Shown: piece by piece, positions 11,246 through 61,149 of the stretch
Position numbering within the stretch: position 1 is the stretch's first letter
Layout of the letters: each line of letters opens with the position of its first letter
NCBI RefSeq assembly: GCF_040958095.1
Contig: NC_091175.1
Span: 21,066,503 to 21,130,502, forward strand
DNA from: Procambarus clarkii
Taxonomy: Eukaryota; Arthropoda; Malacostraca; Decapoda; Cambaridae
Direction: 5' to 3'
DNA length: 64,000 nt
Position numbers and translations under genes: made by a program
The notes under the pieces: model-generated
The model's input: the letters and a program-made list of their open reading frames with translations, nothing else
The model's database searches: none
What the model was told of the DNA's origin: nothing

Positions 11246-11879
11246 GCAGAACTAATTAAACACTGATACAGCCAGGTCAAGCTAGTGATAGGGAGGCACT
11301 GGAGAATTACTTAACCCCTGCTTTGACATAGCACATGCATAGCTTTGCATAAAAAAGCTTTAACCACCGTGCTGCGCCGAGTTTATTGTGAAATTCCCCC
11401 GGTGCGCATGAAATAAAGTGTTCCCCCAAAATTCTTTTTTCTTTGTAAAATGATAAATTCCCTTCCCTGAACATGTCTATGTAAAAATAAATACCAAATT
11501 CCACTTACTTTGGCTGTGGGGATGTGGACAAGGTGCACTGTGACGTCATCAGGGCCTAGTCGCCCGTGCATGAATCGCCCAGACACGGTCGCGCAGGCCA
11601 TTCAAGCACCGGGTGTTGCCACAAATATATTTTCAATTATTTGTTTTATGTAGTTCCAACGTGGTTTTATTTTTTTTTATCGTATATGATGCATATTTGT
11701 GTCCTTTACAATATGTATACAGTAGAACGTTTATAATGTTCCCTGGAACTGTGATACATGTGTCAGTAATGTGTCCACAATAAATGTTTATTGTCGCAAT
11801 ATTACCTGTTAAAAATTCACTAAAATTACAATATGTACAGTTTCACACACTATTTACACAGTAACACACTTTATTACAC
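11246..11879. other. Intronic spacer without a recognised feature
   Basis: AT-rich sequence of RBFA intron 5. No convincing coding sequence or repeat was recognised. Confidence 0.4.
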
Positions 11880-18433: not shown

Positions 18434-20045
18434 ATAGATGAAGTTGCAAGGAATAACCACAGTGGTTAAAACTAGGAAATACCATCACAAATCCGATGTG
18501 AGCATCATATAAAGAGTTGTGAGTACAGTATAAGTAGGATCAGAGCCCTCATAGATGGAGGATAGCTCTTGTAAATAACAAAGGTAAAACTTCATTGGTA
18601 ATGTTGAATTTTGTTCTAGCAAAATACATGCAGTATGCTACAATAAACAATAATGTCACTTGCCTTTGGCCACATTAATGCTACCTGTGGCCACACCCAC
18701 ACTAGTGTCTCCTACCTGTGGCCACACCCAGATTACCTGTGGCCACACCCAGATTACCTGTGGCCACACCCACACTAGAGTCACCTACCTGTGGCCACAC
18801 CCACACTAGTGTCACCTACCTGTGGCCACACCCACACTAGTGTCACCTACCTGTGGCCACACCCACACTAGTGTCGCCTACCTGTGGCCACACCCACACT
18901 AGTCACCTACCTGTGGTCACACCCACACTAGTGTCACCTACCTGTGGCCACACCCACACTAGTGTCACCTACCTGTGGCCACACCCACACTAGTGTCACC
19001 TACCTGTGGCCACACCCACACTAGTGTCACCTACCTGTGGCCACACCCACACTAGTGTCACCTACCTGTGGCCACACCCACACTAGTGTCACCTACCTGT
19101 GGCCACACCCACACTAGTCACCTACCTGTGGCCACACCCACACTAGTCACCTGTGGCCACACCCACACTAGTCACCTACCTGTGGCCACACCCACACTAG
19201 TCACCTACCTGTGGCCACACCCACACTAGTGTCACCTACCTGTGGCCACACCCACACTAGAGTCACCTACCTGTGGCCACACCCACACTAGAGTCACCTA
19301 CCTGTGGCCACACCCACACTAGTGTCACCTACCTGTGGCCACACCCACACTAGTGTCACCTACCTGTGGCCACACCCACACTAGTCACCTACCTGTGGCC
19401 ACACCCACACTAGTGTCACCTACCTGTGGCCACACCCACACTAGAGTCACCTACCTGTGGCCACACCCACACTAGTGTCACCTACCTGTGGCCACACCCA
19501 CACTAGTCACCTGTGGCCACACCCACACTAGTCACCTACCTGTGGCCACACCCACACTAGAGTCACCTACCTGTGGCCACACCCACACTAGTGTCACCTA
19601 CCTGTGGCCACACCCACACTAGAGTCACCTACCTGTGGCCACACCCACACTAGTGTCACCTACCTGTGGCCACACCCACACTAGAGTCACCTACCTGTGG
19701 CCACACCCACACTAGTGTCACCTACCTGTGGCCACACCCACACTAGTCACCTGTGGCCACACCCACACTAGTCACCTACCTGTGGCCACACCCACACTAG
19801 TCACCTACCTGTGGCCACACCCACACTAGTATCACCTACCTGTGGCCACACCCACACTAGTCACCTACCTGTGGCCACACCCACACTAGAGTCACCTACC
19901 TGTGGCCACACCCACACTAGTGTCACCTACCTGTGGCCACACCCACACTAGTGTCACCTACCTGTGGCCACACCCACACTAGTGTCACCTACCTGTGGCC
20001 ACACCCACACTAGTGTCACCTACCTGTGGCCACACCCACACTAGT

Positions 20046-21220
20046 ATCACCTACCTGTGGCCACACCCACACTAGTCACCTACCTGTGGCCACACCCACA
20101 CTAGAGTCACCTACCTGTGGCCACACCCACACTAGTGTCACCTACCTGTGGCCACACCCACACTAGTGTCACCTACCTGTGGCCACACCCACACTAGTGT
20201 CACCTACCTGTGGCCACACCCACACTAGTGTCACCTACCTGTGGCCACACCCACACTAGAGTCACCTACCTGTGGCCACACCCACACTAGTGTCACCTAC
20301 CTGTGGCCACACCCACACTAGTGTCACCTACCTGTGGCCACACCCACACTAGTGTCACCTACCTGTGGCCACACCCACACTAGTGTCACCTACCTATGGC
20401 CACACCCACACTAGTGTCACCTACCTGTGGCCACACCCACAGTAGTGTCACCTACCTGTGGCCACACCCACACTAGTGTCACCTACCTGTGGCCACACCC
20501 ACACTAGTGTCACCTACCTGTGGCCACACCCACACTAGTGTCACCTACCTGTGGCCACACCCACACTAGTGTCACCTACCTGTGGCCACACCCACACTAG
20601 TGTCACCTACCTGTGGCCACACCCACACTAGTATCACCTACCTGTGGCCACACCCACACTAGTCACCTACCTGTGGCCACACCCACACTAGAGTCACCTA
20701 CCTGTGGCCACACCCACACTAGTGTCACCTACCTGTGGCCACACCCACACTAGTGTCACCTACCTGTGGCCACACCCACACTAGTGTCACCTACCTGTGG
20801 CCACACCCACACTAGTGTCACCTACCTGTGGCCACACCCACACTAGAGTCACCTACCTGTGGCCACACCCACACTAGTGTCACCTACCTGTGGCCACACC
20901 CACACTAGTGTCACCTACCTGTGGCCACACCCACACTAGTGTCACCTACCTGTGGCCACACCCACACTAGTGTCACCTACCTATGGCCACACCCACACTA
21001 GTGTCACCTACCTGTGGCCACACCCACAGTAGTGTCACCTACCTGTGGCCACACCCACACTAGTGTCACCTACCTGTGGCCACACCCACACTAGTGTCAC
21101 CTACCTGTGGCCACACCCACACTAGTGTCACCTACCTGTGGCCACACCCACACTAGTGTCACCTACCTGTGGCCACACCCACACTAGTGTCACCTACCTG
21201 TGGCCACACCCACAGTAGTG
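20046..21220. repeat. Higher-order duplication (587-bp period) within the 31-bp array
   Basis: Rare variants recur with the same 587-bp offset: TAGTATC at 20046 and 20633, CCTATGG at 20396 and 20983, and CAGTAG at 20441 and 21028. A block of about 19 units has therefore been duplicated as a whole. Confidence 0.88.
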
Positions 21221-21340
21221 TCACCTAACTGTGGCCACACCCACAGTAGTGTCACCTACCTGTGGCCACACCCACACTAGTGTCACCTACCTGTGGCCAC
21301 ACCCACACTAGTGTCACCTACCTGTGGCCACACCCACACT

Positions 21341-21530
21341 ATAAAAGGAGTTAGTAAACAGTTGATTGACAGTTGAGAGGCGGGCCGAAAGAGCAAAGCT
21401 CAACCTCCGCAAACACAAGTGGGTGAATACAACTAGGTGAATACACACACACGGGACACCACGAGCGTAGCTCTCATCCTGTAACTACACTTAGGTAATT
21501 ACAAACAAACACACACACACATTAGTAGTG
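21341..21530 (+). mobile_element. LINE 3'-tail fragments plus CA repeat inside the 31-bp array
   Basis: 21356-21420 matches the LINE 3' UTR at 11176-11240 (GATTGACAGTTGAGAGGCGG...). 21452-21502 matches the LINE end at 14424-14475 (GGGACACCACGAGCGTAGCT, CTTAGGTAATTAC). A (CA)n tract follows. It splits the array into 2.7 kb and 1.0 kb blocks. Confidence 0.85.
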
Positions 21531-22615
21531 TCTCCTACCTGTGGCCACACCCACAGTAGTGTCACCTACCTGTGGCCACACCCACACTAGTGTCACCTAC
21601 CTGTGGCCACACCCACACTAGTGTCACCTACCTGTGGCCACACCCACACTAGTGTCTCCTACCTGTGGCCACACCCACACTAGTGTCACCTACCTGTGGC
21701 CACACCCACAGTAGTGTCACCTACCTGTGGCCACACCCACACTAGTGTCACCTACCTGTGGCCACACCCACACTAGTGTCACCTACCTGTGGCCACACCC
21801 ACACTAGTGTCACCTACCTGTGGCCACACCCACACTAGTGTCACCTACCTGTGGCCACACCCACACTAGTGTCACCTACCTGTGGCCACACCCACACTAG
21901 TGTCACCTACCTGTGGCCACACCCACACTAGTGTCTCCTACCTGTGGCCACACCCACACTAGTGTCACCTACCTGTGGCCACACCCACACTAGTGTCACC
22001 TACCTGTGGCCACACCCACACTAGTGTCTCCTACCTGTGGCCACACCCACAGTAGTGTCACCTGTGGCCACACCCACACTTGTGTCACCTACCTGTGGCC
22101 ACACCCACAGTAGTGTCACCTACCTGTGGCCACACCCACAGTAGTGTCACCTACCTGTGGCCACACCCACACTAGTGTCACCTACCTGTGGCCACACCCA
22201 CACTAGTGTCACCTACCTGTGGCCACACCCACACTAGTGTCACCTACCTGTGGCCACACCCACCGTAGTGTCACCTACCTGTGGCCACACCCACACTAGT
22301 GTCACCTACCTGTGGCCACACCCACACTAGTGTCACCTACCTGTGGCCACACCCACAGTAGTGTCACCTACCTGTGGCCACACCCACACTAGTGTCTCCT
22401 ACCTGTGGCCACACCCACACTAGTGTCACCTACCTGTGGCCACACCCACACTAGTGTCACCTACCTGTGGCCACACCCACTAGTGTCACCTACCTGTGGC
22501 CACACCCACTACGGACCACTTAGTCTGCTATGTTTCCCACTTTCACAAAGCCGCGGTGTTTTTCACTCTCGTGGCAATTTTAGCGGTAAACAAAAAAATA
22601 CAAAAAAAGACTTAC

Positions 22616-23733: not shown

Positions 23734-23980
23734 CTTGAGGTTATCTTGAGATGATTTCGGGGCTTTTTTAAGTGTCCCGCGGCCCGGTCCTCGACCAGAC
23801 CTCCACCCCCAGGAAGCAACCCGTGACAGCTGACTAACACCCAGGTACCTTTTACTGCTAGGTAACAGGGGCATAGGGTGAAAGAAACTCTGCCCATTGT
23901 TTCTCGCCGGCAGCTGGGATCGAACCCAGGACCACAGGATCACAAGTCCCGCGTGCTGTCCGCTTGGCCGACCGGCTCCC
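23734..23980 (-). mobile_element. tRNA-headed SINE, copy C (reverse), at the edge of the 21-bp array
   Basis: Reverse orientation: CTTGAGGTTATCTTGAGATG tail at the left, GGGATCGAACCC B box and GGCCGACCGGCTCCC head at the right. A lone 21-bp array unit lies to its left (23711-23733) and the main array begins at 23983, so the SINE inserted into the array or beside its first unit. Confidence 0.9.
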
Positions 23981-23982
23981 CA

Positions 23983-26887
23983 ATGGCTAGGTGGAGGACA
24001 GGAATGGCTAGGTGGAGGGCGGGAATGGCTAGGTGGAGGGCAGGAATGGCTAGGTGGAGGGCGGGAATGGCTAGGTGGAGGGCGGGAATGGCTTGGTGGA
24101 GGGCGGGAATGGCTTGGTGGAGGGCGGGAATGGTTTGGTGGAGGGCGGGAATGGTTTGGTGGAGGGCGGGAATGGTTTTGGTGGAGGGCTAGAATGGCTA
24201 GGTGGAGGGCAAGAATGGCTAGGTGGAGGGCAAGAATGGCTTGGTGGAGGGCAGGAATGGCTTGGTGGAGGGCGGGAATGGCTAGGTGGAGGGCGGGAAT
24301 GGCTAGGTGGAGGGCGGGAATGGCTAGGTGGAGGGCGGGAATGGCTAGGTGGAGGGCGGGAATGGCTTGGTGGAGGGCGGGAATGGCTTGGTGGAGGGCG
24401 GGAATGGTTTTGGTGGAGGGCTAGAATGGCTAGGTGGAGGGCAAGAATGGCTAGGTGGAGGGCAAGAATGGCTTGGTGGAGGGCAAGAATGGCTAGGTGG
24501 AGGGCAAGAATGGCTTGGTGGAGGGCAAGAATGGTTAGGTGGAGGGCAGGAATGGCTAGGTGGAGGGCAAGAATGGCTAGGTGGAGGGCAAGAATGGCTA
24601 GGTGAAGGGCAAGAATGGCTAGGTGGAGGGCAAGAATGGCTAGGTGGAGGGCAAGAATGGCTAGGTGGAGGGCAAGAATGGCTAGGTGGAGGGCAAGAAT
24701 GGCTAGGTGGAGGGCAAGAATGGCTAGGTGGAGGGCAAGAATGGCTAGGTGGAGGGCAAGAATGGCTTGGTGGAGGGCAAGAATGGCTTTGTGGAGGGCA
24801 GGAATGGCTTGGTAGAGGGCAGGAATGGCTAGGTGGAGGGCAAGAATGGCTTGGTGGAGGGCAAGAATGGCTTGGTAGAGGGCAGGAATGGCTAGGTGGA
24901 GGGCAAGAATGGCTTGGTGGAGGGCGGGAATGGTTTTGGTGGAGGGCTAGAATGGCTAGGTGGAGGGCAAGAATGGCTAGGTGGAGGGCAAGAATGGCTT
25001 TGTGGAGGGCAGGAATGGCTTGGTAGAGGGCAGGAATGGCTAGGTGGAGGGCAAGAATGGCTTGGTGGAGGGCAAGAATGGCTTGGTGGAGGGCAGGAAT
25101 GGCTTGTTGGAGGGCAAGAATGGTTAGGTGGAGGGCAAGAATGGCTAGGTGGAGGGCAAGAATGGCTAGGTGGAGGGCAAGAATGGCTAGGTGGAGGGCA
25201 AGAATGGCTTGGTGGAGGGCAAGAATGGCTTGGTGGAGGGCAGGAATGGCTAGGTGGAGGGCAAGAATGGTTAGGTGGAGGGCAAGAATGGCTAGGTGGA
25301 GGGCAAGAATGGTTAGGTGGAGGGCAAGAATGGCTAGGTGGAGGGCAAGAATGGTTAGGTGGAGGGCAAGAATGGCTAGGTGGAGGGCAAGACTGGCTAG
25401 GTGGAGGGCAAGACTGGCTAGGTGGAGGGCAAGACTGGCTAGGTGGAGGGCAAGAATGGCTAGGTGGAGGGCAAGACTGGCTAGGTGGAGGGCAAGACTG
25501 GCTAGGTGGAGGGCAAGAATGGCTAGGTGGAGGGCAAGAATGGCTAGGTGGAGGGCAAGAATGGTTAGGTGGAGGGCAAGAATGGTTAGGTGGAGGGCAA
25601 GAATGGCTAGGTGGAGGGCAAGAATGGCTAGGTGGAGGGCAAGAATGGCTTGGTGGAGGGCAAGAATGGTTAGGTGGAGGGCAAGAATGGTTAGGTGGAG
25701 GGCAAGAATGGCTAGGTGGAAAGCAAGAATGGCTTGGTGGAGGGCAAGAATGGCTTGGTGGAGGGCAAGAATGGGTAGGTGGAGGGCAAGAATGGCTAGG
25801 TGGAGGGCAAGAATGGCTAGGGTGGAGTGCAAGAATGGATAGGTGGAGGGCAAGAATGGCTTGGTGGAGGGCAAGAATGGTTAGGTGGAGGGCAAGAATG
25901 GCTAGGTGGAGGGCAAGAATGGCTAGGTGGAGGGCAAGAATGGCTTGGTGGAGGGCAAGAATGGTTAGGTGGAGGGCAAGAATGGCTAGGTGGAGGGCAA
26001 GAATGGCTAGGTGGAGGGCAAGAATGGCTAGGTGGAGGGCAAGAATGGCTAGGTGGAGGGCAAGAATGGCTAGGTAGAGGGCAAGAATGGCTAGGTGGAG
26101 GGCAAGAATGGCTAGGTGGAGGGCAAGAATGGCTTGGTGGAGGGCAGGAATGGCTAGGTGGAGGGCAAGAATGGTTAGGTGGAGGGCAAGAATGGCTAGG
26201 TGGAGGGCAAGAATGGCTAGGTGGAGGGCAAGAATGGCTTGGTGGAGGGCAGGAATGGCTAGGTGGAGGGCAAGAATGGTTAGGTGGAGGGCAAGAATGG
26301 TTAGGTGGAGGGCAAGAATGGCTAGGTGGAGGGCAAGAATGGCTAGGTGGAGGGCAAGAATGGCTAGGTGGAGGGCAAGAATGGTTAGGTGGAGGGCAAG
26401 AATGGCTAGGTGGAGGGCAAGAATGGTTAGGTGGAGGGCAAGAATGGCTAGGTGGAGGGCAAGAATGGTTAGGTGGAGGGCAAGAATGGTTAGGTGGAGG
26501 GCGAGAATGGCTAGGTTGAGGGCGAGAATGGCTAGGTTGAGGGCAGGAATGGCTAGGTGGAGGGCAGGAATGGCTAGGTGGAATACAAGAATGGCTAGGT
26601 GGAGGGCAAGAATGGCTAGGTGGAGGGCAGGAATGGCTTGGTGGAGGGCAGGAATGGCTAGGTGGAGGTCAGGAATGGCTAGGTGGAGGTCAGGAATGGC
26701 TAGGTGGAGGTCAGGAATGGCTAGGTGGAGAGCAGGAATGGCTAGGAGGAGGGCAGGAATGGCTAGGTGGAAGGCAGGAATGGCTAGGTGGAAGGCAGGA
26801 ATGGCTAGGTGGAAGGCAGGAATGGCTAGGTGGAAGGCAGGAATGGCTAGGTGGAAGGCAGGAATGGCTAGGTATAGGGCAGGAATT
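23983..26887. repeat. 21-bp minisatellite array in RBFA intron 4
   Basis: About 138 near-identical units containing AATGGCTAGGTGGAGGGCA. Variants are GGTTAGG/GGCTTGG, GGGCGGG/GGGCAAG/GGGCAGG, and an early TTTTGGTGG variant. Since 21 is divisible by 3 and the unit has no stop in most frames, long repetitive reading frames exist on both strands; they are by-products. On the RBFA sense strand each unit reads CTTGCCCTCCACCTAGCC, pyrimidine-rich followed by TAG. Confidence 0.97.
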
Positions 26888-29551: not shown

Positions 29552-29785
29552 GGGAGCCGGTGGCTGAGCAGACAGAACACTGCACGCGTGATCCTGTGGT
29601 CCCGGGTTCAGTCCCAGGCGCCGGCGAGAAACAATGGGTTTCTTTCACCCTGATGCTCCTGTTACCTAGCAGTAAATAAGTACCTGGGAGTGAGTCAGCT
29701 GTCACGGGCTGCTTACTGGGGGGAGAGGCCTGGTCGAGGACCGGGCCGCGGGGACACTAAGCCCCGAAATCATCTTAAGATAACC
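29552..29785 (+). mobile_element. tRNA-headed SINE, copy D
   Basis: GGGAGCCGGTGGCTGAGCAG head, GGTTCAGTCCCAGG B-box-like site, CTAGCAGTAAATAAGTACC body, AGGCCTGGTCGAGGACCGGG tail. It lacks GGCAGAG after AACAATG. It ends about 75 bp before the outer DIRS element. Confidence 0.88.
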
Positions 29786-47982: not shown

Positions 47983-48934
47983 AACTTTATAAAATGGTAC
48001 TGAATGTGATGAAATGCCTCTTTTTGATGTGTCCTTCAGTAGATGTCCAAAGATACCCACCTGAATGCCTGTCACACCTTTATTACCACCCATTTGTACC
48101 TGGTGCATTAATTCTCTCTCAAGATTAACATTTTTATCATATTTTTCTTAAAATTGTGGATTGAATTTGCTTCAACAACCACTTTCTTAAATGCAAGCAA
48201 TACAGTACACTGAAAGACGAGGCTGCTGACATCCCTCCGCCCAGGACCACCACCTTTTACCAACTTCTTCCATGGGTATGACCTGGTAGTATTTTTCTGA
48301 TTTATGAATTTGTTCATGCAGTTGCTTGAATTGCTGTTTAAGCTTTCTCATGGGGATTTGTCTTGGTGTTCAGTAGATCCTGAGCTCCAAGCTCCCCTCG
48401 CCACAAAAGAGGGCCAGATTCTGGTTCTGGCTCCCAATTGGGATCTCGGAGTTTTTGGGGTATCGGAGGTCTTTTGCAGCTACCTAAGGCATGGCTTGAC
48501 CACTGCCTAGCTACGGGGACCTACTGAAAGGTCCTCCCCCCCCCTCCCAGGAAATTTAGTATGCCATAATTTTATGGATATTTTGGTGGTTTTGGTATTA
48601 ATTGTTAACAGATACCAGTACATGTGCTATAATTATACTTTAAAATTATATTTTAATTTTTTTATATTTTTTTATATTTTAAAATTATATTTTAATAGGA
48701 AAATGCAAAAGAATATGTAGGAAATTAATGAAATTTGTGTTATTTGGTATAAATAAGTGTTCTATGCCCCCAAATTGCAATGTGATTTCACAGATAATAG
48801 GGATTAGCAGAACTGGACATATTACGTTACAATAATCTAAGAATCTGAAAAATGGGGATCAGGATAATAGGAGAGAGCCAGTCTAAATGTGAAGATGGTT
48901 GCTCTCTCTAACTCTCTTAAAACTTTCAGTATCC
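47983..48934. other. Intron 1 sequence without a clear feature
   Basis: AT-rich; 48001-48030 (ACTGAATGTGATGAAATGCC) is a degenerate echo of a DIRS end. 48655-48700 is a T/A-rich repeat. No coding sequence was recognised. Confidence 0.4.
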
Positions 48935-49625
48935 CGGCGAAGGTAAAAAAAAAAAGTGGTATGTGTTCACGGCGTTTTGCCGCGTAAGCGTAAAAACAAA
49001 AATGTGTATACATGTACGCTTTTTACTCTCCTGACCTTAGTTCTCGAGCTACGTATTTCATTTTGGTGCCAACGTGTTCGCAATAAAATTCTCTAGAAGA
49101 ACATCAGTAAAAAAAGTCACGAAACGTATAGGGATACCAGCACCAAATAAATAACTACGAGGATGACTCGCCGTGAGCACCCAACAGCAACAAAATGTTT
49201 TTACTCTTGGGATTGTTATCACCTCCACACTTGTCGTACAGCGTTAATTTTGGTATCAATGGACTCGCAATGAAATTCCCAACACGGTGATATGAATATA
49301 AGCGTAGAATAATGATTGCGGCCCGCCCGCAAGAGTGTGGGAAGTGGTGAAATTGTTACCCGGTATCGGTGACGGGACGACACACGGCGTTTTGAAAGTT
49401 TATACTTATTTCACTCTCATGACATTATTATTCTATGTACGTCATTCATTTTTGTGTCAATGTGTTCCCAATAGAATGTTCTATGAGCCCGTAGGTAAAA
49501 AAGATCAACAAAGCGTAAGATAGAATAGCGCCAAATATAAAACAAAGCTGGAACATATCAGTGAGAGTCAAACACACACGAAATGTTTTTACTTTTGTTA
49601 TGTTTGTGAACCTTTCATGAACTTA
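48935..49625. repeat. Dispersed repeat with ~200-bp internal periodicity, copy 2
   Basis: Same order of motifs as 15480-16440: TTCTCGAGCTACGTATTTCA near 49042, GCAATAAAATTCTCTA near 49080, GATGACTCGCCGTGA near 49161, then GAAAGTTTATACTTATTTCA near 49392. Confidence 0.65.
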
Positions 49626-49851
49626 TTGTACCATGCAGCCTATTGGTGAGAAAGAGAGCCTCATGGCGTGCAGTTTGAAACAAACCTAAAGTAAATCGGA
49701 TAAAAATTGAATTTTATACAAATATTTTAAAAGAGGACATAAATTTATGTCCACCATGCGGGAGCGGGTAGGCGAAACAGGATGCCAGGAGGAGTCCTCA
49801 TCCGCAGAAAGTGTTAACATGTAGGGTGTTGACACCTGGTGGTTGTCTGGG

Positions 49852-50111
49852 GTAGGGGCTTGACAGCCAAGAGGACAGCGCAATCAGATTCTAAGTCCTG
49901 AGGTTCTGGATTCGATCCCCAGTGGAGGCGGAAACAAATGGGCAGATTTCTTTTACCCTGATGCACCTGTTCACCTAGCAGTAAATAGATACCTAGGAGT
50001 TATACAGCTGCTACGGGCTGCTTCCTGGGGGTGAGTAACAAAAAGGAGGCCTGGTCGAGGACCGGGCCACGGGGACGCTACGTCCTGAAATCATCTCAAG
50101 ATAACCTAAAG
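49852..50111 (+). mobile_element. tRNA-headed SINE, copy E (diverged subfamily)
   Basis: B-box-like GGATTCGATCCCCAG, body CACCTAGCAGTAAATAGATACC, and tail GGCCTGGTCGAGGACCGGG...CTCAAGATAACCTAAAG. The head differs from the other copies (GACAGCCAAGAGGACAGCG), and the body has an extra GTAACAAAAAG. Confidence 0.8.
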
Positions 50112-51294
50112 ATAGTACAGTATCCAGGAAGATCGACAAGACGGTCCTTAGTAATCACCGTCAAGTCCACGTAATGCTTGGAGGTTTTCTTTTTAGCAAA
50201 AAATTAGGTTTCATATAGGCTGGACGGAGTAATCCAGTCTCTTCCGTCTGCCACTGTCACCCAGTGATGACATTTTAAAAGTTCCCTGACATAATGGAAA
50301 GCAAATGTCAACAGTGTCACACTGTTGTTAATCCTGTCCTGGGAAGAGCAGGATATAGCCTAAGAAAGTAACCAAGCAGCCTAGCTCAGAAAGAAGGTAC
50401 AAAGATATTTAACAGGCAAGAATTAATTGGGTTCAAGTAAGGAAATTAATTAAATGATAAGTTCATTTTGGTACAATGAAAGTTATGAATCTGAAGAAAT
50501 GTATTTAAAATCTTACAGTATATACGGGTTCTGTTTCTGGGTGTGAGAGGGGAAGGGCCACGCGGTGCGAGCTCCGCGGAAAACAATATATATCTAGGGA
50601 TATTTCAGTGATACAGAAACTAAACACAGTCAAATAACTTTTAAAGTGTGTCTCAGCATATTAACCAATATATCATAGTGATTACCATCCGATCGTTTGT
50701 GTTCAAGAAAAAATAAGTGAAACTCGTGTGTAGTCAAGGCCTGCCCTCGTGGTGCCAGGAGGCCTTAGGCGATAGTTGCCTAGTCGTCAATAAATCACAT
50801 TTCTCGCTATTGAAACATCAAGTAATCAGTGCCCATAGTGCTAAGCTCTCTATGCAAAACCTGTGTCTATTATAACAAAAATTAAGATAACATATTTTAA
50901 TATCAAGTGAACAAATTATACACAAAATAAGTCCGTCGTGTGTATGTAAACAAGGGCCACTTGGAGGTAGGCCCACCCCAGTACCCTCTGTGTGTGTATT
51001 CTTTCAAATAGTGTAACGTACTCAGGTAACTATGCCCAGACACAGAAACTAGACGTCGCCGCTGTAAGGTAACTAGTGGGAAAATGAAAGTAATGTAATC
51101 TAACAAGTGAACAAAATAAATTAAGAGTGCGACACATGGTAGCAACAGTGGCCATCCATACAGCCTCCTCCAGGCCTGTCTCAAGTTGGTAAACACCATG
51201 GTCAATACCCACAGCCAGCACCCGCGGTCAACCCCCCCACCGGTCAACACCCCACCTTGTAAGACCATTACCACTGAACAGAAGTGTTCAAAAA
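50112..51294. other. Region upstream of the LINE ORF1 (possible LINE 5' UTR)
   Basis: No coding sequence recognised. The LINE 5' end cannot be placed; it may lie anywhere between about 50530 and 51200. Confidence 0.4.
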
Positions 51295-51534
51295 ATGGCT
51301 TTGATAAAAACGTGCATAGAATGCAAAATGAAGGTAGATTACCAACAGAGCTTTCAATGCCAACTCTGTTCAGCAGCCATACACAAAAAATGTGCCAACA
51401 TGACTAACAATTCAAGGAGAAATGGTCCCAGTGACCACTCTGTGTACTGGCTCTGCAAAAAGGATGATGTAACTTTTTTGAAATTGATGGAAATCCTTGA
51501 TAAAACTCCCGCCGAAAACAGAATTACTAATTAA
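51295..51534 (+). pseudogene. LINE ORF1, N-terminal PHD-like zinc finger
   Basis: Begins MALIKTCIECKMKVDYQQSF with C-x2-C (CIEC), C-x2-C (CQLC), H-x2-C (IHKKC) and W-x-C (YWLC), the spacing of a PHD finger with the last pair incomplete. This frame ends at TAA 51532-51534. The protein most likely continues in the next frame (LLINACIAISNVFKQTVHDT, to 51685) and then, after an extra G in a GGGGG run near 51672-51676, in the frame of the repeat. Confidence 0.68.
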
Positions 51535-51554
51535 TGCCTGCATAGCAATTTCTA

Positions 51555-54500
51555 ATGTCTTCAAACAAACTGTACATGACACCAAGGTACAACCAGCTGT
51601 GGCACAGAGCTCGGTGGCAGCAGAGCCTGAGCAGGGCGCGGAGTCGGGGACGCCTGAGCAGGGCGCGGAGTCGGGGGACGCCTGAGCGGGGCGCGGAGTC
51701 GGGGACGCCTGAGCGGGGCGCGGAGTCGGGGACGCCTGAGCGGGGCGCGGAGTCGGGGACGCCTGAGCGGGGCGCGGAGTCGGGGACGCCTGAGCGGGGC
51801 GCGGAGTCGGGGACGCCTGAGCGGGGCGCGGAGTCGGGGACGCCTGAGCGGGGCGCGGAGTCGGGGACGCCTGAGCGGGGCGCGGAGTCGGGGACGCCTG
51901 AGCGGGGCGCGGAGTCGGGGACGCCTGAGCGGGGCGCGGAGTCGGGGACGCCTGAGCGGGGCGCGGAGTCGGGGACGCCTGAGCGGGGCTCGAAGTCGGG
52001 GACGCCTGAGCGGGGCGCGGAGTCGGGGACGCCTGAGCGGGGCGCGGAGTCGGGGACGCCTGAGCGGGGCGCGGAGTCGGGGACGCCTGAGCGGGGCGCG
52101 GAGTCGGGGACGCCTGAGCGGGGCGCGGAGTCGGGGACGCCTGAGCGGGGCGCGGAGTCGGGGACGCCTGAGCGGAGCGCGGAGTCGGGGACGCCTGAGC
52201 GGGGCGCGGAGTCGGGGACGCCTGAGCGGGGCGCGGAGTCGGGGACGCCTGAGCGGGGCGCGGAGTCGGGGACGCCTGAGCGGGGCGCGGAGTCGGGGAC
52301 GCCTGAGCGGGGCGCGGAGTCGGGGACGCCTGAGCGGGGCGCGGAGTCGGGGACGCCTGAGCGGGGCGCGGAGTCGGGGACGCCTGAGCGGGGCGCGGAG
52401 TCGGGGACGCCTGAGCGGGGCGCGGAGTCGGGGACGCCTGAGCGGGGCGCGGAGTCGGGGACGCCTGAGCGGGGCGCGGAGTCGGGGACGCCTGAGCGGG
52501 GCGCGGAGTCGGGGACGCCTGAGCGGGGCGCGGAGTCGGGGACGCCTGAGCGGGGCGCGGAGTCGGGGACGCCTGAGCGGGGCGCGGAGTCGGGGACGCC
52601 TGAGCGGGGCGCGGAGTCGGGGACGCCTGAGCGGAGCGCGGAGTCGGGGACGCCTGAGCGGAGCGCGGAGTCGGGGACGCCTGAGCGGAGCGCGGAGTCG
52701 GGGACGCCTGAGCGGAGCGCGGAGTCGGGGACGCCTGAGCGGAGCGCGGAGTCGGGGACGCCTGAGCGGAGCGCGGAGTCGGGGACGCCTGAGCGGAGCG
52801 CGGAGTCGGGGACGCCTGAGCTGAGCGCGGAGTCGGGGACGCCTGAGCGGAGCGCGGAGTCGGGGACGCCTGAGCGGAGCGCGGAGTCGGGGACGCCTGA
52901 GCGGAGCGCGGAGTCGGGGACGCCTGAGCGGAGCGCGGAGTCGGGGACGCCTGAGCGGAGCGCGGAGTCGGGGACGCCTGAGCGGAGCGCGGAGTCGGGG
53001 ACGCCTGAGCGGGGCGCGGAGTCGGGGACGCCTGAGCGGGGCGCGGAGTCGGGGACGCCTGAGCGGAGCGCGGAGTCGGGGACGCCTGAGCGGAGCGCGG
53101 AGTCGGGGACGCCTGAGCGGGGCGCGGAGTCGGGGACGCCTGAGCGGGGCGCGGAGTCGGGGACGCCTGAGCGGGGCGCGGAGTCGGGGACGCCTGAGCG
53201 GGGCGCGGAGTCGGGGACGCCTGAGCGGGGCGCGGAGTCGGGGACGCCTGAGCGGGGCGCGGAGTCGGGGACGCCTGAGCGGGGCGCGGAGTCGGGGACG
53301 CCTGAGCGGGGCGCGGAGTCGGGGACGCCTGAGCGGGGCGCGGAGTCGGGGACGCCTGAGCGGGGCGCGGAGTCGGGGACGCCTGAGCGGGGCGCGGAGT
53401 CGGGGACGCCTGAGCGGGGCGCGGAGTCGGGGACGCCTGAGCGGGGCGCGGAGTCGGGGACGCCTGAGCGGGGCGCGGAGTCGGGGACGCCTGAGCGGGG
53501 CGCGGAGTCGGGGACGCCTGAGCGGGGCTCGGAGTCGGGGACGCCTGAGCGGGGCTCGGAGTCGGGGACGCCTGAGCGGGGCGCGGAGTCGGGGACGCCT
53601 GAGCGGGGCGCGGAGTCGGGGACGCCTGAGCGGGGCGCGGAGTCGGGGACGCCTGAGCGGGGCGCGGAGTCGGGGACGCCTGAGCGGGGCGCGGAGTCGG
53701 GGACGCCTGAGCGGGGCGCGGAGTCGGGGACGCCTGAGCGGGGCGCGGAGTCGGGGACGCCTGAGCGGGGCGCGGAGTCGGGGACGCCTGAGCGGGGCGC
53801 GGAGTCGGGGACGCCTGAGCGGGGCTCGAAGTCGGGGACGCCTGAGCGGGGCGCGGAGTCGGGGACGCCTGAGCGGGGCGCGGAGTCGGGGACGCCTGAG
53901 CGGGGCGCGGAGTCGGGGACGCCTGAGCGGAGCGCGGAGTCGGGGACGCCTGAGCGGAGCGCGGAGTCGGGGACGCCTGAGCGGAGCGCGGAGTCGGGGA
54001 CGCCTGAGCGGAGCGCGGAGTCGGGGACGCCTGAGCGGAGCGCGGAGTCGGGGACGCCTGAGCGGAGCGCGGAGTCGGGGACGCCTGAGCGGAGCGCGGA
54101 GTCGGGGACGCCTGAGCGGAGCGCGGAGTCGGGGACGCCTGAGCGGGGCGCGGAGTCGGGGACGCCTGAGCGGGGCGCGGAGTCGGGGACGCCTGAGCGG
54201 GGCGCGGAGTCGGGGACGCCTGAGCGGGGCTCGAAGTCGGGGACGCCTGAGCGGGGCGCGGAGTCGGGGACGCCTGAGCGGGGCGCGGAGTCGGGGACGC
54301 CTGAGCGGGGCGCGGAGTCGGGGACGCCTGAGCGGGGCGCGGAGTCGGGGACGCCTGAGCGGGGCGCGGAGTCGGGGACGCCTGAGCGGAGCGCGGAGTC
54401 GGGGACGCCTGAGCGGGGCGCGGAGTCGGGGACGCCTGAGCGGGGCGCGGAGTCGGGGACGCCTGAGCGGGGCGCGGAGTCGGGGACGCCTGAGCGGGGC

Positions 54501-56834
54501 GCGGAGTCGGGGACGCCTGAGCGGAGCGCGGAGTCGGGGACGCCTGAGCGGGGCGCGGAGTCGGGGACGCCTGAGCGGGGCGCGGAGTCGGGGACGCCTG
54601 AGCGGGGCGCGGAGTCGGGGACGCCTGAGCGGGGCGCGGAGTCGGGGACGCCTGAGCGGGGCGCGGAGTCGGGGACGCCTGAGCGGGGCGCGGAGTCGGG
54701 GACGCCTGAGCGGGGCGCGGAGTCGGGGACGCCTGAGCGGGGCGCGGAGTCGGGGACGCCTGACCGGGGCGCGGAGTCGGGGACGCCTGAGCGGGGCGCG
54801 GAGTCGGGGACGCCTGAGCGGGGCGCGGAGTCGGGGACGCCTGAGCGGAGCGCGGAGTCGGGGACGCCTGAGCGGAGCGCGGAGTCGGGGACGCCTGAGC
54901 GGAGCGCGGAGTCGGGGACGCCTGAGCGGAGCGCGGAGTCGGGGACGCCTGAGCGGAGCGCGGAGTCGGGGACGCCTGAGCGGAGCGCGGAGTCGGGGAC
55001 GCCTGAGCGGAGCGCGGAGTCGGGGACGCCTGAGCGGAGCGCGGAGTCGGGGACGCCTGAGCGGAGCGCGGAGTCGGGGACGCCTGAGCGGAGCGCGGAG
55101 TCGGGGACGCCTGAGCGGAGCGCGGAGTCGGGGACGCCTGAGCGGAGCGCGGAGTCGGGGACGCCTGAGCGGAGCGCGGAGTCGGGGACGCCTGAGCGGA
55201 GCGCGGAGTCGGGGACGCCTGAGCGGAGCGCGGAGTCGGGGACGCCTGAGCGGAGCGCGGAGTCGGGGACGCCTGAGCGGAGCGCGGAGTCGGGGACGCC
55301 TGAGCGGAGCGCGGAGTCGGGGACGCCTGAGCGGAGCGCGGAGTCGGGGACGCCTGAGCGGAGCGCGGAGTCGGGGACGCCTGAGCGGAGCGCGGAGTCG
55401 GGGACGCCTGAGCGGAGCGCGGAGTCGGGGACGCCTGAGCGGAGCGCGGAGTCGGGGACGCCTGAGCGGAGCGCGGAGTCGGGGACGCCTGAGCGGAGCG
55501 CGGAGTCGGGGACGCCTGAGCGGAGCGCGGAGTCGGGGACGCCTGAGCGGAGCGCGGAGTCGGGGACGCCTGAGCGGAGCGCGGAGTCGGGGACGCCTGA
55601 GCGGAGCGCGGAGTCGGGGACGCCTGAGCGGAGCGCGGAGTCGGGGACGCCTGAGCGGAGCGCGGAGTCGGGGACGCCTGAGCGGAGCGCGGAGTCGGGG
55701 ACGCCTGAGCGGAGCGCGGAGTCGGGGACGCCTGAGCGGAGCGCGGAGTCGGGGACGCCTGAGCGGAGCGCGGAGTCGGGGACGCCTGAGCGGAGCGCGG
55801 AGTCGGGGACGCCTGAGCGGAGCGCGGAGTCGGGGACGCCTGAGCGGAGCGCGGAGTCGGGGACGCCTGAGCGGAGCGCGGAGTCGGGGACGCCTGAGCG
55901 GAGCGCGGAGTCGGGGACGCCTGAGCGGAGCGCGGAGTCGGGGACGCCTGAGCGGAGCGCGGAGTCGGGGACGCCTGAGCGGAGCGCGGAGTCGGGGACG
56001 CCTGAGCGGAGCGCGGAGTCGGGGACGCCTGAGCGGAGCGCGGAGTCGGGGACGCCTGAGCGGAGCGCGGAGTCGGGGACGCCTGAGCGGAGCGCGGAGT
56101 CGGGGACGCCTGAGCGGAGCGCGGAGTCGGGGACGCCTGAGCGGAGCGCGGAGTCGGGGACGCCTGAGCGGAGCGCGGAGTCGGGGACGCCTGAGCGGAG
56201 CGCGGAGTCGGGGACGCCTGAGCGGAGCGCGGAGTCGGGGACGCCTGAGCGGAGCGCGGAGTCGGGGACGCCTGAGCGGAGCGCGGAGTCGGGGACGCCT
56301 GAGCGGAGCGCGGAGTCGGGGACGCCTGAGCGGAGCGCGGAGTCGAGGACGCCTGAGCAGGGCGCGGAGTCGGGGACGCCTGAGCAGGGCGCGGAGTCGG
56401 GGACGCCTGAGCGGAGCGCGGTGTCACAGGCCCCGGAGCGGAGCGCGGTGTCACAAGCACCGGAGCAGGGCACAGTGTCGGGGACGCCGCAGCAGAGTGC
56501 GGTCCCTGGCAAAGGGAAACAAACAAAACAAGGCCCCAAAATCTGTTGGTATTACAAATGGGCAACCTGTAAGCATGGGGAATCGGGAAGAATAAATGGA
56601 ACGTGTACATACGATCACCCTAGAAAGTGCAGAAACCTCCTCAATACAGGTAAATGTACCAAAAGCTGTGAATTCTTCCACCCAGAAATTTGCAAGAACT
56701 CTTTGGACAGGAAAGAGTGCTTCAATGCTGAATGTCCAGCTTTTCATATAAGAGGTACTAGGCGAATAAAACCGACAGACTACGACTATGAAAACAGCCA
56801 CTACTCCATCGACCGGGATAATTTTTTAACATGA
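51555..56834 (+). CDS. LINE ORF1, 9-residue repeat domain and CCCH fingers
   Basis: The frame is open for 1759 codons. From about residue 41 to 1620 it is a tandem array of GTPERSAES/GTPERGAES with rare GSES, GSKS and EL variants. It then passes through degenerate units (QAPERSAVS, GTPQQSAVPG) into KGKQTKQGPK and three fingers near 56540-56750: C-x7-C-x11-C-x3-H, C-x8-C-x3-C-x3-H and C-x8-C-x4-C-x3-H. The ending is DNFLT, with the stop at 56832-56834. The codons before the array (51555-51670) are probably not the natural frame. The repeat is hydrophilic, rich in E/R/S/P and without hydrophobics, so likely disordered. CCCH fingers commonly bind RNA, matching an RNP-forming ORF1 role. Whether this is translated at this length is unknown. 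Confidence 0.75.
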   Translation: MSSNKLYMTPRYNQLWHRARWQQSLSRARSRGRLSRARSRGTPERGAESGTPERGAESGTPERGAESGTPERGAESGTPERGAESGTPERGAESGTPERGAESGTPERGAESGTPERGAESGTPERGAESGTPERGAESGTPERGSKSGTPERGAESGTPERGAESGTPERGAESGTPERGAESGTPERGAESGTPERGAESGTPERSAESGTPERGAESGTPERGAESGTPERGAESGTPERGAESGTPERGAESGTPERGAESGTPERGAESGTPERGAESGTPERGAESGTPERGAESGTPERGAESGTPERGAESGTPERGAESGTPERGAESGTPERGAESGTPERGAESGTPERSAESGTPERSAESGTPERSAESGTPERSAESGTPERSAESGTPERSAESGTPERSAESGTPELSAESGTPERSAESGTPERSAESGTPERSAESGTPERSAESGTPERSAESGTPERSAESGTPERGAESGTPERGAESGTPERSAESGTPERSAESGTPERGAESGTPERGAESGTPERGAESGTPERGAESGTPERGAESGTPERGAESGTPERGAESGTPERGAESGTPERGAESGTPERGAESGTPERGAESGTPERGAESGTPERGAESGTPERGAESGTPERGAESGTPERGSESGTPERGSESGTPERGAESGTPERGAESGTPERGAESGTPERGAESGTPERGAESGTPERGAESGTPERGAESGTPERGAESGTPERGAESGTPERGSKSGTPERGAESGTPERGAESGTPERGAESGTPERSAESGTPERSAESGTPERSAESGTPERSAESGTPERSAESGTPERSAESGTPERSAESGTPERSAESGTPERGAESGTPERGAESGTPERGAESGTPERGSKSGTPERGAESGTPERGAESGTPERGAESGTPERGAESGTPERGAESGTPERSAESGTPERGAESGTPERGAESGTPERGAESGTPERGAESGTPERSAESGTPERGAESGTPERGAESGTPERGAESGTPERGAESGTPERGAESGTPERGAESGTPERGAESGTPERGAESGTPDRGAESGTPERGAESGTPERGAESGTPERSAESGTPERSAESGTPERSAESGTPERSAESGTPERSAESGTPERSAESGTPERSAESGTPERSAESGTPERSAESGTPERSAESGTPERSAESGTPERSAESGTPERSAESGTPERSAESGTPERSAESGTPERSAESGTPERSAESGTPERSAESGTPERSAESGTPERSAESGTPERSAESGTPERSAESGTPERSAESGTPERSAESGTPERSAESGTPERSAESGTPERSAESGTPERSAESGTPERSAESGTPERSAESGTPERSAESGTPERSAESGTPERSAESGTPERSAESGTPERSAESGTPERSAESGTPERSAESGTPERSAESGTPERSAESGTPERSAESGTPERSAESGTPERSAESGTPERSAESGTPERSAESGTPERSAESGTPERSAESGTPERSAESGTPERSAESGTPERSAESGTPERSAESGTPERSAESGTPERSAESGTPERSAESGTPERSAESGTPERSAESGTPERSAESRTPEQGAESGTPEQGAESGTPERSAVSQAPERSAVSQAPEQGTVSGTPQQSAVPGKGKQTKQGPKICWYYKWATCKHGESGRINGTCTYDHPRKCRNLLNTGKCTKSCEFFHPEICKNSLDRKECFNAECPAFHIRGTRRIKPTDYDYENSHYSIDRDNFLT
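51640..56430. repeat. 27-bp GC-rich minisatellite inside LINE ORF1
   Basis: About 175 units of exactly 27 bp, consensus GGGGACGCCTGAGCGG(G/A) followed by CGCGGAGTC. Two unit types alternate in blocks; the last stretch (about 54840-56345) is some 56 consecutive A-type units. Rare variants share spacing in multiples of 27 (CTCGAAG at 51989, 53825 and 54230). Antisense frames are also open for about 5 kb; they are by-products. Confidence 0.97.
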
Positions 56835-59800
56835 GGAGGAGGAGAAGAATGGCTAAAAATGACCAGACTCTACCACCAACTCGGTCAAATGCTAGAGAGG
56901 ACGCAAACACAGTGGCCTCCTTACCAGAGCCTCAGATATTAACACCAAGTAAAGCATCCAGCACTTCCACTAACACGATAACATCATTTATATTTGCCAA
57001 CATCCAGGGTATAAAAACACGCAAATCCAACAAAGTTCACTTTATAGATGGTCTCCTTCATGAGGTAAATGCAGTGTTTGCAGCCCTAACGGAAACTCAC
57101 ACAAAGGACTACCTTGATGGTGAAATATGGATCTCAGAGTACAATCTCTTCAGATGTGATAGGAAACACCGGCTTCAGGGTGGGGTCAGCCTCTACATCA
57201 AAGACACACTCATCTGTACTGAGCTGCTAAACACCTCAAATGATATGGTGGAAGTGCTGATAGTCAAAATAGAGATCCTAAATGTAGTTGTTGTCCTTGC
57301 ATATAAGTCACCGGAGGCAAACTCTCAGCAGTTTAAAGACCAACTAATGAAAATAGAACACTGCTTGGAAAACCTCACAAATCCAGCTCCGATCATCATC
57401 CTGCTTGGGGACTTCAACCTACGGCACCTGAAATGGAAGCACCTGGCTAATACAGTAATATCAGAAAGAATACCAGGAAGTAGCCTAAATGAACAGGCAC
57501 ATGCAAATGACCTGCTACGGATGTGCGATAGATTTGCCTTAAACCAGCAAATAGTAGAACCAACTAGGAAGGAGAACACGCTGGATCTCATTTTCACTAA
57601 TAATGATGAGTTGATCGGGAACATAATGATTACAAATACAGTACCAGTTACTCAGATCACAACTTAATTGAAGTTCTGACAACCATGGGGAATGGACCTT
57701 CAAAACCAGTCCAGATTCCCGGTGGAGGAGATTTCAGCAAATTCAACTTCAATAATAAACAGATAAACTGGGAGCAAATAAACCAGGACTTCACAGAAAT
57801 AAACTGGGAAGAACAGCTAGAAAATGCAAACCTGAACCAGTGCCTGGAAAAAATAAGCTCAGTAGCACTAGAAATATGTTCAAACCGCATACCACTAAGA
57901 AAAAAGAGGAAGAGATGCAGATTGGAACGGGAACGTCGTTCCCTATATAGGCGAAGAAAACGAATCGCGGAACAACTTGAGAGTCGCACCCTATCTCAAG
58001 AACGGCAAAGAAGGTTAGGTAGAGAAATAGAAACAATTGAACTCAAGCTACAAGAATCATACAAAACCCAGGAGAGGCAAAGAGAGCAAAAGGCCATCAG
58101 TGAAATAGAAAGAAATCCGAAATATTTTTTCTCCTATGCAAAATCAAGATCAAAAACCACATCTAGTATCGGGCCCCTGCGAAAGGGAGATGGAACTTTC
58201 ACCGATGACAAAAAAAGAAATGAGCGAGTTACTGAGGAAGCAGTACGACTCTGTTTTCAGCGAGCCATTAAATGCGCTAAAGATTGATAACCCAAATGAA
58301 TTTTTCATGGATATGATACCAACATCAAATCATATATCAGACGTCGCCCTATCCCCACTAGATTTTGAAGAAGCCATAAACAGTATGTCTATGCACTCTG
58401 CACCAGGCCCGGATTCTTGGAACTCCATATTCATCAAGAACTGTAAAAAACCACTATCGCAGGCCCTTCACATTCTGTGGAGACAAAGCCTAGATACTGG
58501 CGTTATCCCTGACATACTAAAAACAGCAGAGATAGCACCACTCAATAAAGGAGGAAATAAGGCAGAGGCAAAAAATTACAGACCAATAGCACTAACATCG
58601 CACATCATAAAAATTTTTGAGAGAGTGCTAAGAAATATAATCACAAAATACATGGAATCACAGCATCTCCATAACCCCGGACAACATGGTTTCAGAACAG
58701 GGCGCTCTTGCCTGTCGCAGTTGCTGGACCACTATGATATGGCATTAGATGCTATGGAAGACAAACAAAACGCTGATGTAATTTACACAGATTTCGCAAA
58801 AGCTTTTGATAAATGTGACCATGGTGTTATTGCACATAAAATGCGTTCAAAAGGAATTACCAGGAAAATAGGCAGATGGATCTACAATTTCCTGACTAAC
58901 AGAACCCAATGTGTAATAGTCAACAAAATAAAATCCAGCCCATCAACCGTGAAGAGCTCAGTCCCCCAGGGTACTGTGCTTGCTCCAGTACTTTTTCTCA
59001 TCCTCATATCGGACATAGACCAGAACACAACCTATAGCACTGTATCATCCTTTGCAGATGACACTAGGATTTTCATGAGAGTTGGCAACATAGAGGACAC
59101 GGCAAACCTCCAATCAGATGTAGATCAGGTCTTTCTATGGGCTACAGAAAATAATATGGTGTTTAACGAGGATAAGTTCCAGCTCATGCGCTACGGAAAA
59201 ATTGAAAATATAAAAACAGAAATCACGTACAAAACTCAGGCAAATCATAACATAGAACGAAAAGGCAATGTAAAGGATCTGGGTGTACTCATGTCGGAAG
59301 ACCTTACCTTTAAAGAACACAATAAAGTAGCCGTCACAACTGCAAGAAAAATGACAGGTTGGATAACAAGAACTTTTCACACTAGAGATGCTATACCGAT
59401 GATGATACTTTTCAAAACGCTTGTGCTCTCTAGAGTGGAATACTGCTGCACAATGACAGCCCCTTTCAAAGCTGGAAAAATTGCTGACCTGGAGAGCGTG
59501 CAGAGATCCTTTACTGCTAGAATCCACTCAGTAAAACATCTAAATTACTGGGACCAACTAAAGAGCCTAAATCTGTACTCCCTTGAGCGCAGGCGGGAGA
59601 GATACGTAATAATTTACACATGGAAAATAATTGAGGGGCTGGTCCCAAACCTGCACACAGAAATAACATCACATGAGACCAGGAGGCATGGCAGGATGTG
59701 CAGAATACCCCCGTTGAAAAGCAGAGGTGCAACAGGTACTCAGAGAGAACTCCACCAACATCAGAGGCCCGAGACTGTTTAACACGCTTCCACTACACAT

Positions 59801-59984
59801 AAGGGGCATAACTGGCCGACCCCTCACAGTGTTCAAGAGAGAACTGGATAAGCACCTCCAAAGGATACCTGATCAACCAGGCTGTGACTCATACGTCAGG
59901 CTGCGAGCAGCCGCGTCTAACAGCCTGGTTGATCAGTCCAGCAACCAGGAGGCCTGGTCGACGACCGGGCCGCGGGGACACTAA
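56831..59984 (+). pseudogene. LINE ORF2: endonuclease and reverse transcriptase (three frameshifts)
   Basis: The first frame, 56831-57667, gives the endonuclease: FIFANIQGIKTRKSNK, FAALTETHTKDY, LLGDFNLRHLKW, LDLIFTNN. The expected YSDHN lies just after a shift near 57640. The second frame, to about 58212, gives a basic coiled-coil-like linker (RLERERRSLYRRRKR). After a shift in an A run (58209-58216), RT follows: SAPGPDSWN, YRPIALTSH, GFRTGRSCLSQLL, YTDFAKAFDKCDH, SVPQGTVLAPVLF, and the catalytic FADD at 59051-59062. A third shift near 59727 leads to the C-terminal NIRGPRLFNTLPLHIRG, ending at a stop at 59982-59984 (CACTAA). There is no RNase H. Confidence 0.85.
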
Positions 59985-60018
59985 GCCCCGGAAGCACCTC
60001 AAGGTAAGGTAACCTCAA
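59940..60018 (+). repeat. LINE 3' tail shared with the SINE family
   Basis: AGGAGGCCTGGTCGACGACC, GGGCCGCGGGGACACTAAGC and CCTCAAGGTAACCTCAAGG-type sequence match the tails of SINE copies A-E almost base for base. The ORF2 stop codon falls inside this shared segment. Confidence 0.92.
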
Positions 60019-61149
60019 GGTATATATAAATACAATACAGTATATACAGTATTAGTCTTGCCTGTTTTTTTTCTGATACAGTAATCCATTCCATTTGTTT
60101 ATCACTCAGAAAATATATGTCAATTGGTTGGACTAATATTATTTGTCTTATGAAAACAAATATTGAAAAGATGATGTGATTATGCAGTATGGATGAGTGA
60201 GAAAACTATCATCAATATACAGTACTGTATTTTAAGTAATTGACCAATTGTCTTCAGCCAATCACAGGGTGCTTTCTCAGGGATAGGTAAGGGATTGCCC
60301 TATCATAAGTAATGACTTTCTTTGGATAAATTGTTCACTATACAGTAAACTGTATATCAGAGATATTTATTTAATTATATTTTGCACATGCAGTTTTAGC
60401 ACTTCCATAATGACAGTAGAAAGTGACAAGTTACATGAAGTGGTAAGTCATTTGTACATAATGAGCAAGATGAAAGTAACTGTCGCTTAGACAAGGTGAT
60501 TCTTTTCAAAATGTAAGAAAATTTGAATGACTGATTACGGTAAAATCAGCAGTTCAAATTTTCTTACTGAAGCCTAACATTATAAAACTGAATTTTGTTA
60601 TGACATTTATGATTGAAAGGGACAGTAAAGCCCTGAAATTAGTTGAGAATTCATATACTGTAGAGTATTTTGGATTCATACTGTGTAAAGAAGAAACAAA
60701 AAAGTTTAGCAAAATGAGGAAGTGATTGTGCACCTGAAGAGGGTTATTAGAAAAGAATAAATGTTATTGTGGATAAGATCAAATTGTGAGAAAATACAGC
60801 ATACTAGTTCCAAGAGTTTGAAATGGGACCTATGAGCCAAATCTCAATCCTGCTAGTAAAGCTAAAATACATGCCTGTATGTGGAAGGGACTAGCATAGG
60901 TTGACAATAAATGAACAGGACTGCACTTTAATGTATATGGAAAGCCCAGCATATATAGCTGAAAAAAAAACTCAAGAACAATGTGGGGGGGGGGGGTTTA
61001 TTTGACAAGCCGCTGATTTCCTGTCCCCGTCGAGGGCACTAAAGATGATGGTCGTTAGATTAATTCAGGTAGTGTAAATATATACCCCCCCCCCCCCTCA
61101 CTGGACTGAGAAACTGGCAATGAGTATGGATGAAGATGTATTGTATTAC
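60019..61149. other. Intron 1 sequence adjacent to exon 1
   Basis: AT-rich with G and C homopolymer runs near 60984-60998 and 61085-61099. No coding sequence or recognised repeat; the exon 1 donor is at 61149. Confidence 0.45.

Follow-up and report, generated by a model that had tools for sequence, protein, structure and literature searches.

Tandem repeats inside the coding part of a LINE have a described counterpart in mouse. The length polymorphism region (LPR) of LINE-1 ORF1 is built from 66-bp or 42-bp units, of which an element has no more than four, and alters the coiled coil between families (PMC3600994, in the portion cited here). ORF1s of the CR1 and L2 lineages often carry a PHD domain, either alone or with an RRM, CCHC knuckles or a transposase-22 domain (PMC4120745, in the part drawn on). 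Minisatellites that arose within human transposable elements are reported to grow over time through local unit duplication after their start (PMC3389668, as excerpted). Tandem repeats have also been described in a LINE 3′ UTR, not in ORF1 (PMC2861651, in part), and a survey of decapod repeats provides context (PMC10454600, in part). In searches of an open-licence library, we found neither a LINE ORF1 with a long coding repeat nor one in which a variable repeat separates a C1/PHD-type finger from a CCCH-like region.

Here we describe a 27-bp tandem array in ORF1 of a LINE in Procambarus clarkii, found in a 64,000-nucleotide stretch of contig NC_091175.1 that was analysed at its full length (hereafter the window). 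The human SVA is a non-coding, non-autonomous retrotransposon with a VNTR. The present family likewise carries a variable tandem repeat in its copies, but the repeat is coding and the element type autonomous. As in the mouse LPR, the repeats lie in frame in a LINE ORF1 and whole units are gained and lost; unlike the LPR as far as the cited portion of PMC3600994 describes it, the units are of 27 bp, number 5-228 per copy, encode a Pro/Glu/Ser-rich stretch and vary from copy to copy. Like the PHD-bearing CR1 and L2 elements, the family has two ORFs, with an N-terminal finger in ORF1 (here of C1/PHD type) and an endonuclease and reverse transcriptase (RT) in ORF2. What accompanies the finger here is a repeat array and a CCCH-like region, in contrast to the ORF1 architectures in the part of PMC4120745 drawn on; the words 'CCCH' and 'tandem' occur zero times in the text of that paper. 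As in the human minisatellites excerpted from PMC3389668, tandem repeats are seeded inside transposable elements, but here the seed is present in every anchored copy of the family, in its own ORF1.

The 27-bp array and the LINE that carries it

An endonuclease followed by an RT, a target-site duplication and many dispersed copies identify the element as a LINE (non-LTR retrotransposon; Table 1). The 12-bp target-site duplication TACAGTATATAC lies at 50514-50525 and 60036-60047, and in five other copies the match starts at positions 26-41 of a query that begins at 50501. The RT matches PDB chains of R2 (E 1.3e-16) and LINE-1 ORF2p (E 7.8e-14). From the finger and the non-poly(A) tail, our guess is that the element belongs to the CR1/L2 lineage of the Jockey superfamily. 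Relatives in viral contigs were found neither by RT protein nor by repeat unit. The family is young and multi-copy, and the window copy is inactivated: the reading frame changes between finger and array, where a stop also intervenes, and ORF2 is spread over three frames, so that both ORFs are broken, in agreement with the frameshifts noted originally outside the repeat.

Table 1. Features of the array-bearing LINE copy, in window positions
Feature	Position	Strand	Basis
Full-length LINE copy with array	50526..60035	+	TSD search; 5′ starts of matches in other copies
N-terminal C1/PHD-type zinc finger of ORF1, with a stop codon at its end in the window copy	51295..51534	+	Pfam; three-frame translation
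27-bp × 180 array, 9 codons per unit, PERGAESGT / PERSAESGT, 1-bp insertion in unit 2	51626..56486	+	TRF; unit parsing; wrap-around alignment
ORF1 C-terminal part: three Cys/His clusters spaced roughly as in CCCH fingers; stop codon 56832-56834	56529..56834	+	Translation; Pfam weak; spacing by eye
ORF2 endonuclease, Exo_endo_phos type	56849..57667	+	Pfam Exo_endo_phos_2, E 9.8e-11
ORF2 reverse transcriptase, in a frame different from the endonuclease in the window copy	58109..59782	+	Pfam RVT_1, E 6.2e-27
LINE 3′ end with CTCAAGGTAAC-like tail, not poly(A)	59948..60035	+	blastn within the window; sequence

The array lies between a C1/PHD-type finger and a CCCH-like region. The original prediction had placed a PHD-like finger on one side and three CCCH fingers on the other. 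The first stands as a C1/PHD-type finger: its ORF reaches Pfam C1_1 (E 4.7e-6, 26.8 bits against a cut-off of 26.5) and falls below the cut-off for PHD (E 3.1e-4), and a PDB search gave weak C1 and PHD matches (best E 0.018). Pfam, on the other hand, barely recognises the CCCH fingers (zf-CCCH, E 0.3). Their spacings, judged by eye, are C-x7-C-x11-C-x3-H, C-x8-C-x3-C-x3-H and C-x8-C-x4-C-x3-H, near the CCCH norm with an 11-residue middle gap in the first cluster. A single-sequence AlphaFold model of this region was uninformative (pLDDT 34).

Other LINE-related sequence is also present in the window. A second LINE at 11865-14441 has an open frame of 858 codons comprising the end of an endonuclease and an RT with ~34% identity to that of the first; upstream of it, no ORF1 was recognised. 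A third LINE-like element (330-3804), spread over two overlapping frames, encodes an RT and, as judged by eye, a C-terminal stretch resembling RNase H. Five places share ~60 bp of the LINE 3′ end at 82-90% (blastn): 8579-8638, 18288-18350, 23741-23804, 29725-29783 and 50044-50104. Those near 8400-8650 and 49850-50104 look SINE-like by eye, as if borrowing the LINE tail.

The giant 9-residue repeat of the original prediction is real. Unit-by-unit parsing gives 180 units, and TRF calls a 27-bp period at 51625-56425 with 177.8 copies and 99% matches. The accompanying statement that there was no indel holds for 179 steps of exactly 27 bp but fails for one of 28 bp: unit 2 carries one extra base at ~51673, seen by parsing and by wrap-around alignment. 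PERGAESGT (84 units) and PERSAESGT (81) dominate, and 10 rarer types make up the other 15 units, 8 of which sit in the first two and last six units of the array. The two main types are strongly blocky, forming 14 runs in units 3-175, against a lowest value of 62 in 10,000 shuffles. The proline in each 9-residue unit makes a coiled coil in the array unlikely.

The frame is kept from unit to unit because 27 bp are 9 codons. We rejected the reading of this frame retention over ~180 units as a mark of selection, since a unit of 9 codons holds the frame by its length and a low indel load is found in other arrays too. The array has 1 indel base in 4800, as against 4 in 2905 for a 21-bp non-LINE array in the window, 68 in 3755 for a 31-bp array and 0 in 157 for a short 20-bp array.

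The window insertion and its 5′ flank are assembled a second time on a different contig of chromosome size, C10 (30162500-30172460, locus L009, against window 48066-57997). The two are 99.2% identical over 9.96 kb, including 2.4 kb of flank, with identical unit order and the same extra base in unit 2. Comparison of the two arrays shows 3 mismatches and 60 gaps, each 1-2 bp long, with zero whole units gained or lost; the 5.05 kb compared outside them (flank and element) has 14 gaps and a single mismatch. L009 was considered as an independent giant insertion and rejected, its 5′ flank being that of the window. It looks like a duplicated assembly stretch of lower quality rather than an old duplication. 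The 60 small gaps, set against 14 elsewhere, indicate that long arrays are error-prone in this assembly, and could suggest that the giant array is itself an assembly artefact. We regard this as highly improbable: the units and their order agree between the two assembled instances (which may share the same reads, so are not independent read-level proof), a second giant array with different units is present on contig C5, and other kilobase arrays were assembled as well.

Copies of the family across the genome

Copies were compared within the 4.03-Gb assembly from which the window comes. Probing the assembly with 601 bp of the endonuclease returned 2476 candidates, of which 40 were scored matches at 98-100%, counting the window and its duplicate. 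Sample 1 comprised 20 of the remaining 39, taken roughly from the top of the ranking by score, with L009 among them; 9 of the 19 others had both the finger and the CCCH side and were counted, and the other 10, which had no finger side, were left uncounted. For sample 2, we used an exact 26-bp motif from the 3′ side of the array, which has 422 sites in the genome (reversed control, 0). The sample took 20 loci, roughly every fifth of 100 listed motif sites, on contigs C1-C19; 15 were anchored and 5, again without a finger side, were not counted. Units in sample 2 were counted by a simple walk with fixed thresholds. Units are irregular in L018, L024, L039 and L047, the last entered as 9 (8 units and one irregular step, which leaves the median unchanged). 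In L035 the array filled the whole fetched stretch, which was extended before the count. Frequencies apply to these samples rather than genome-wide, because sample 1 consists of the closest endonucleases and sample 2 of loci with the exact motif by the array. A 5′ flank test on 26 anchored loci found that the window and L009 are the only pair with the whole flank in common; L023 and L034 match over 372 bp (89.5%) at differing distances, and we interpret this as a common repeat.

The array is present in all 25 independent insertions anchored at the finger and CCCH sides, window included. It has 5-74 units (median 14) in 23 of them, 180 in the window and 228 in the second giant. Sample 1 copies carry 13, 14, 14, 16, 17.6, 18, 29, 30 and 74 units; sample 2 contains 14 copies with 5-37 units besides the 228 of L035. 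Thus, 22 of the 25 have a short array (5-37 units). The possibility that the window copy alone had acquired a repeat was thereby rejected. An ordinary array has two ordered blocks of 9-residue units, PEQGAESGM/T-like (consensus P-E-Q/R-G/S-A-E-S-G-M/T) and then PEQSAVSQA-like (P-E-Q-S-A-V-S-Q-A). The family ORF1 reads as finger, array, CCCH-like region and a tail overlapping the start of ORF2.

Finger, array and CCCH-like region lie in one open frame in 4 of the 9 sample 1 copies and do not in the other 5. In sample 2, the stretch from the linker to the array end is open and in frame in 9 of the 12 examined among 14 ordinary copies, and not in 3. Array length is equal modulo 27 in 7 of the 9 sample 1 copies, the exceptions being L018 and L024. 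Whole-unit variation in copy number, together with local homogenisation, places the array among minisatellites or VNTRs. These comparisons show that a short, variable and usually in-frame coding repeat belongs to the family ORF1, and so bear out the suggestion that the repeat is part of the ORF1 design.

A stronger version of that idea holds that selection maintains the array in ORF1, giant form included, as a charged, disordered and multivalent segment of tunable length that condenses LINE RNA into particles, its long forms being functional variants. The presence of the 9-residue repeat in every anchored copy, mostly in frame, speaks for it, as do the preserved order of the two block types and the 29-74 units of 5 of the 23 ordinary copies. 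However, ordinary copies range all the way from 5 to 74 units, and the ORFs of the giant copies are broken. Nor are nonsynonymous unit changes depleted: pooled over live and dead copies, the distinct changes number 32 nonsynonymous to 9 synonymous, where 119 : 43 are possible. The period is retained, with no visible guarding of the residues in these pooled counts. The giant arrays also look younger than their own insertions (see below). Together these points leave the stronger version quite unlikely. The ~1600-residue multivalent RNP scaffold envisaged in the original prediction is not borne out, with interrupted giant ORFs and no depletion of nonsynonymous unit changes, and the giant form probably does not work as a protein.

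As a point against the reading favoured below, large arrays of lesser size may exist in recently active elements, because L026, with 74 units, is open from array to CCCH-like region (its finger is in another frame) and shows little private change (end branch 0.0021). With an obligatory coding VNTR in ORF1, between the finger and the CCCH-like RNA-binding end, unit number might tune spacing or valency in RNP assembly, long-array variants of tens of units being translated and transposing. We consider this doubtful.

Growth of the giant arrays

The second giant array (L035, on C5) is far more uniform than the element around it. Of its 228 units, 223 are identical; the remainder are two that have one change in common, a +1 and a -1 unit side by side, and a degenerate one at the end. 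Outside the array, this copy carries 31 private substitutions in 1197 bp (2.6%), a rate at which ~157 would be expected in 225 units. The window copy points the same way, with 11 private substitutions in 1478 bp outside the array and 5 substitution events (8 variant units) in 4671 bp within it. Here the difference (Fisher p 0.0002 for 5 events or 0.0016 for 8 units) is suggestive rather than strict, because the label 'private' depends on comparison with no more than 18 other copies, and some of these changes may predate insertion. On these counts, each giant array looks younger than the insertion that holds it. The two elements are both broken, and we take the arrays as separate events because their unit sequences differ (PEQSGESGT on C5, PERG/SAESGT in the window). 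As a point against growth wholly after insertion, part of the seed of the window array was inherited, because the array of L022 includes 5 of the window's PERSAESGT units; L022 also has several otherwise rare substitutions in common with the window, and a tree does not join the two.

Unit number could instead change mainly during retrotransposition, by slippage of the RT on repeated RNA, and not in the chromosome. Copies less than 1% apart in the CCCH-plus-endonuclease region would fit, as they range up to about five-fold in units, from 14 (L013) to 74 (L026), so that an LPR-like constancy within a subfamily is not seen. L012 and L025 argue otherwise. Their common flank (98.1% over 6.58 kb) and identical 5′ truncation mark them as one insertion, and they have zero divergence in the CCCH-plus-endonuclease region. 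Yet TRF counts 18.8 units in L012 and 22.8 in L025, with some small irregular indels; therefore, unit number changes in place. The uniform units within the otherwise diverged C5 copy, and neighbouring non-LINE arrays that are similarly large without any such step, also weigh against slippage, which we think rather improbable as the main source of variation.

These neighbouring arrays are abundant. Tandem arrays outside ORF1 (period at least 7 bp, length at least 150 bp) occupy 46,702 of 253,569 bp, or 18.4%, in stretches that adjoin LINE copies, some with common flanks, a figure that is not a genome average. Periods of 18-42 bp characterise the eleven stretches of 1 kb or more (e.g. 30 bp × 205, 36 bp × 174 and 40 bp × 137). 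By TRF, the window itself has two other kilobase minisatellites: a 31-bp array at 18755-22509 (× 122, 3.8 kb) and a 21-bp array at 23982-26886 (× 138, 2.9 kb). The 21-bp array is open for 691 codons in a minus-strand frame, which its 7-codon unit length can explain without a gene. A giant minisatellite is ordinary in these surroundings; the unusual part is a LINE ORF1 as its seed. In six cases (the C5 locus L035/L049/L050, L022, L026, L028, L011 and L020), a different tandem array ends ~1-40 bp from the start of the LINE 5′ match, an adjacency that may be chance, given that ~18% of the sequence is array.

The reading we favour, at a probability of roughly 0.85, is that a coding VNTR in a LINE ORF1 seeds minisatellite growth after insertion. 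The short 9-residue repeat would serve as a flexible, length-tolerant spacer between the N-terminal finger and the RNA-binding-like end, and its unit number shifts mostly by whole 27-bp units between close relatives. In some inserted copies, the window's included, the array most likely acted as an ordinary minisatellite. Local duplication or unequal exchange in the chromosome would, judging by the mutation counts, have carried it to 180-228 units, and the giant arrays would be by-products rather than working proteins. The original prediction had offered expansion after insertion as its other option, and this is the option that the data favour: 2 of 25 copies are giant, in broken elements, with different units and over-uniform arrays.

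Two look-alikes are thereby separated. One is the short coding repeat that belongs to ORF1; the other is the giant array, most likely a by-product of minisatellite growth in a genome prone to repeats. Its 422 array-end sites within a single genome mean that the family offers a natural replicate experiment on minisatellite growth from a common seed.
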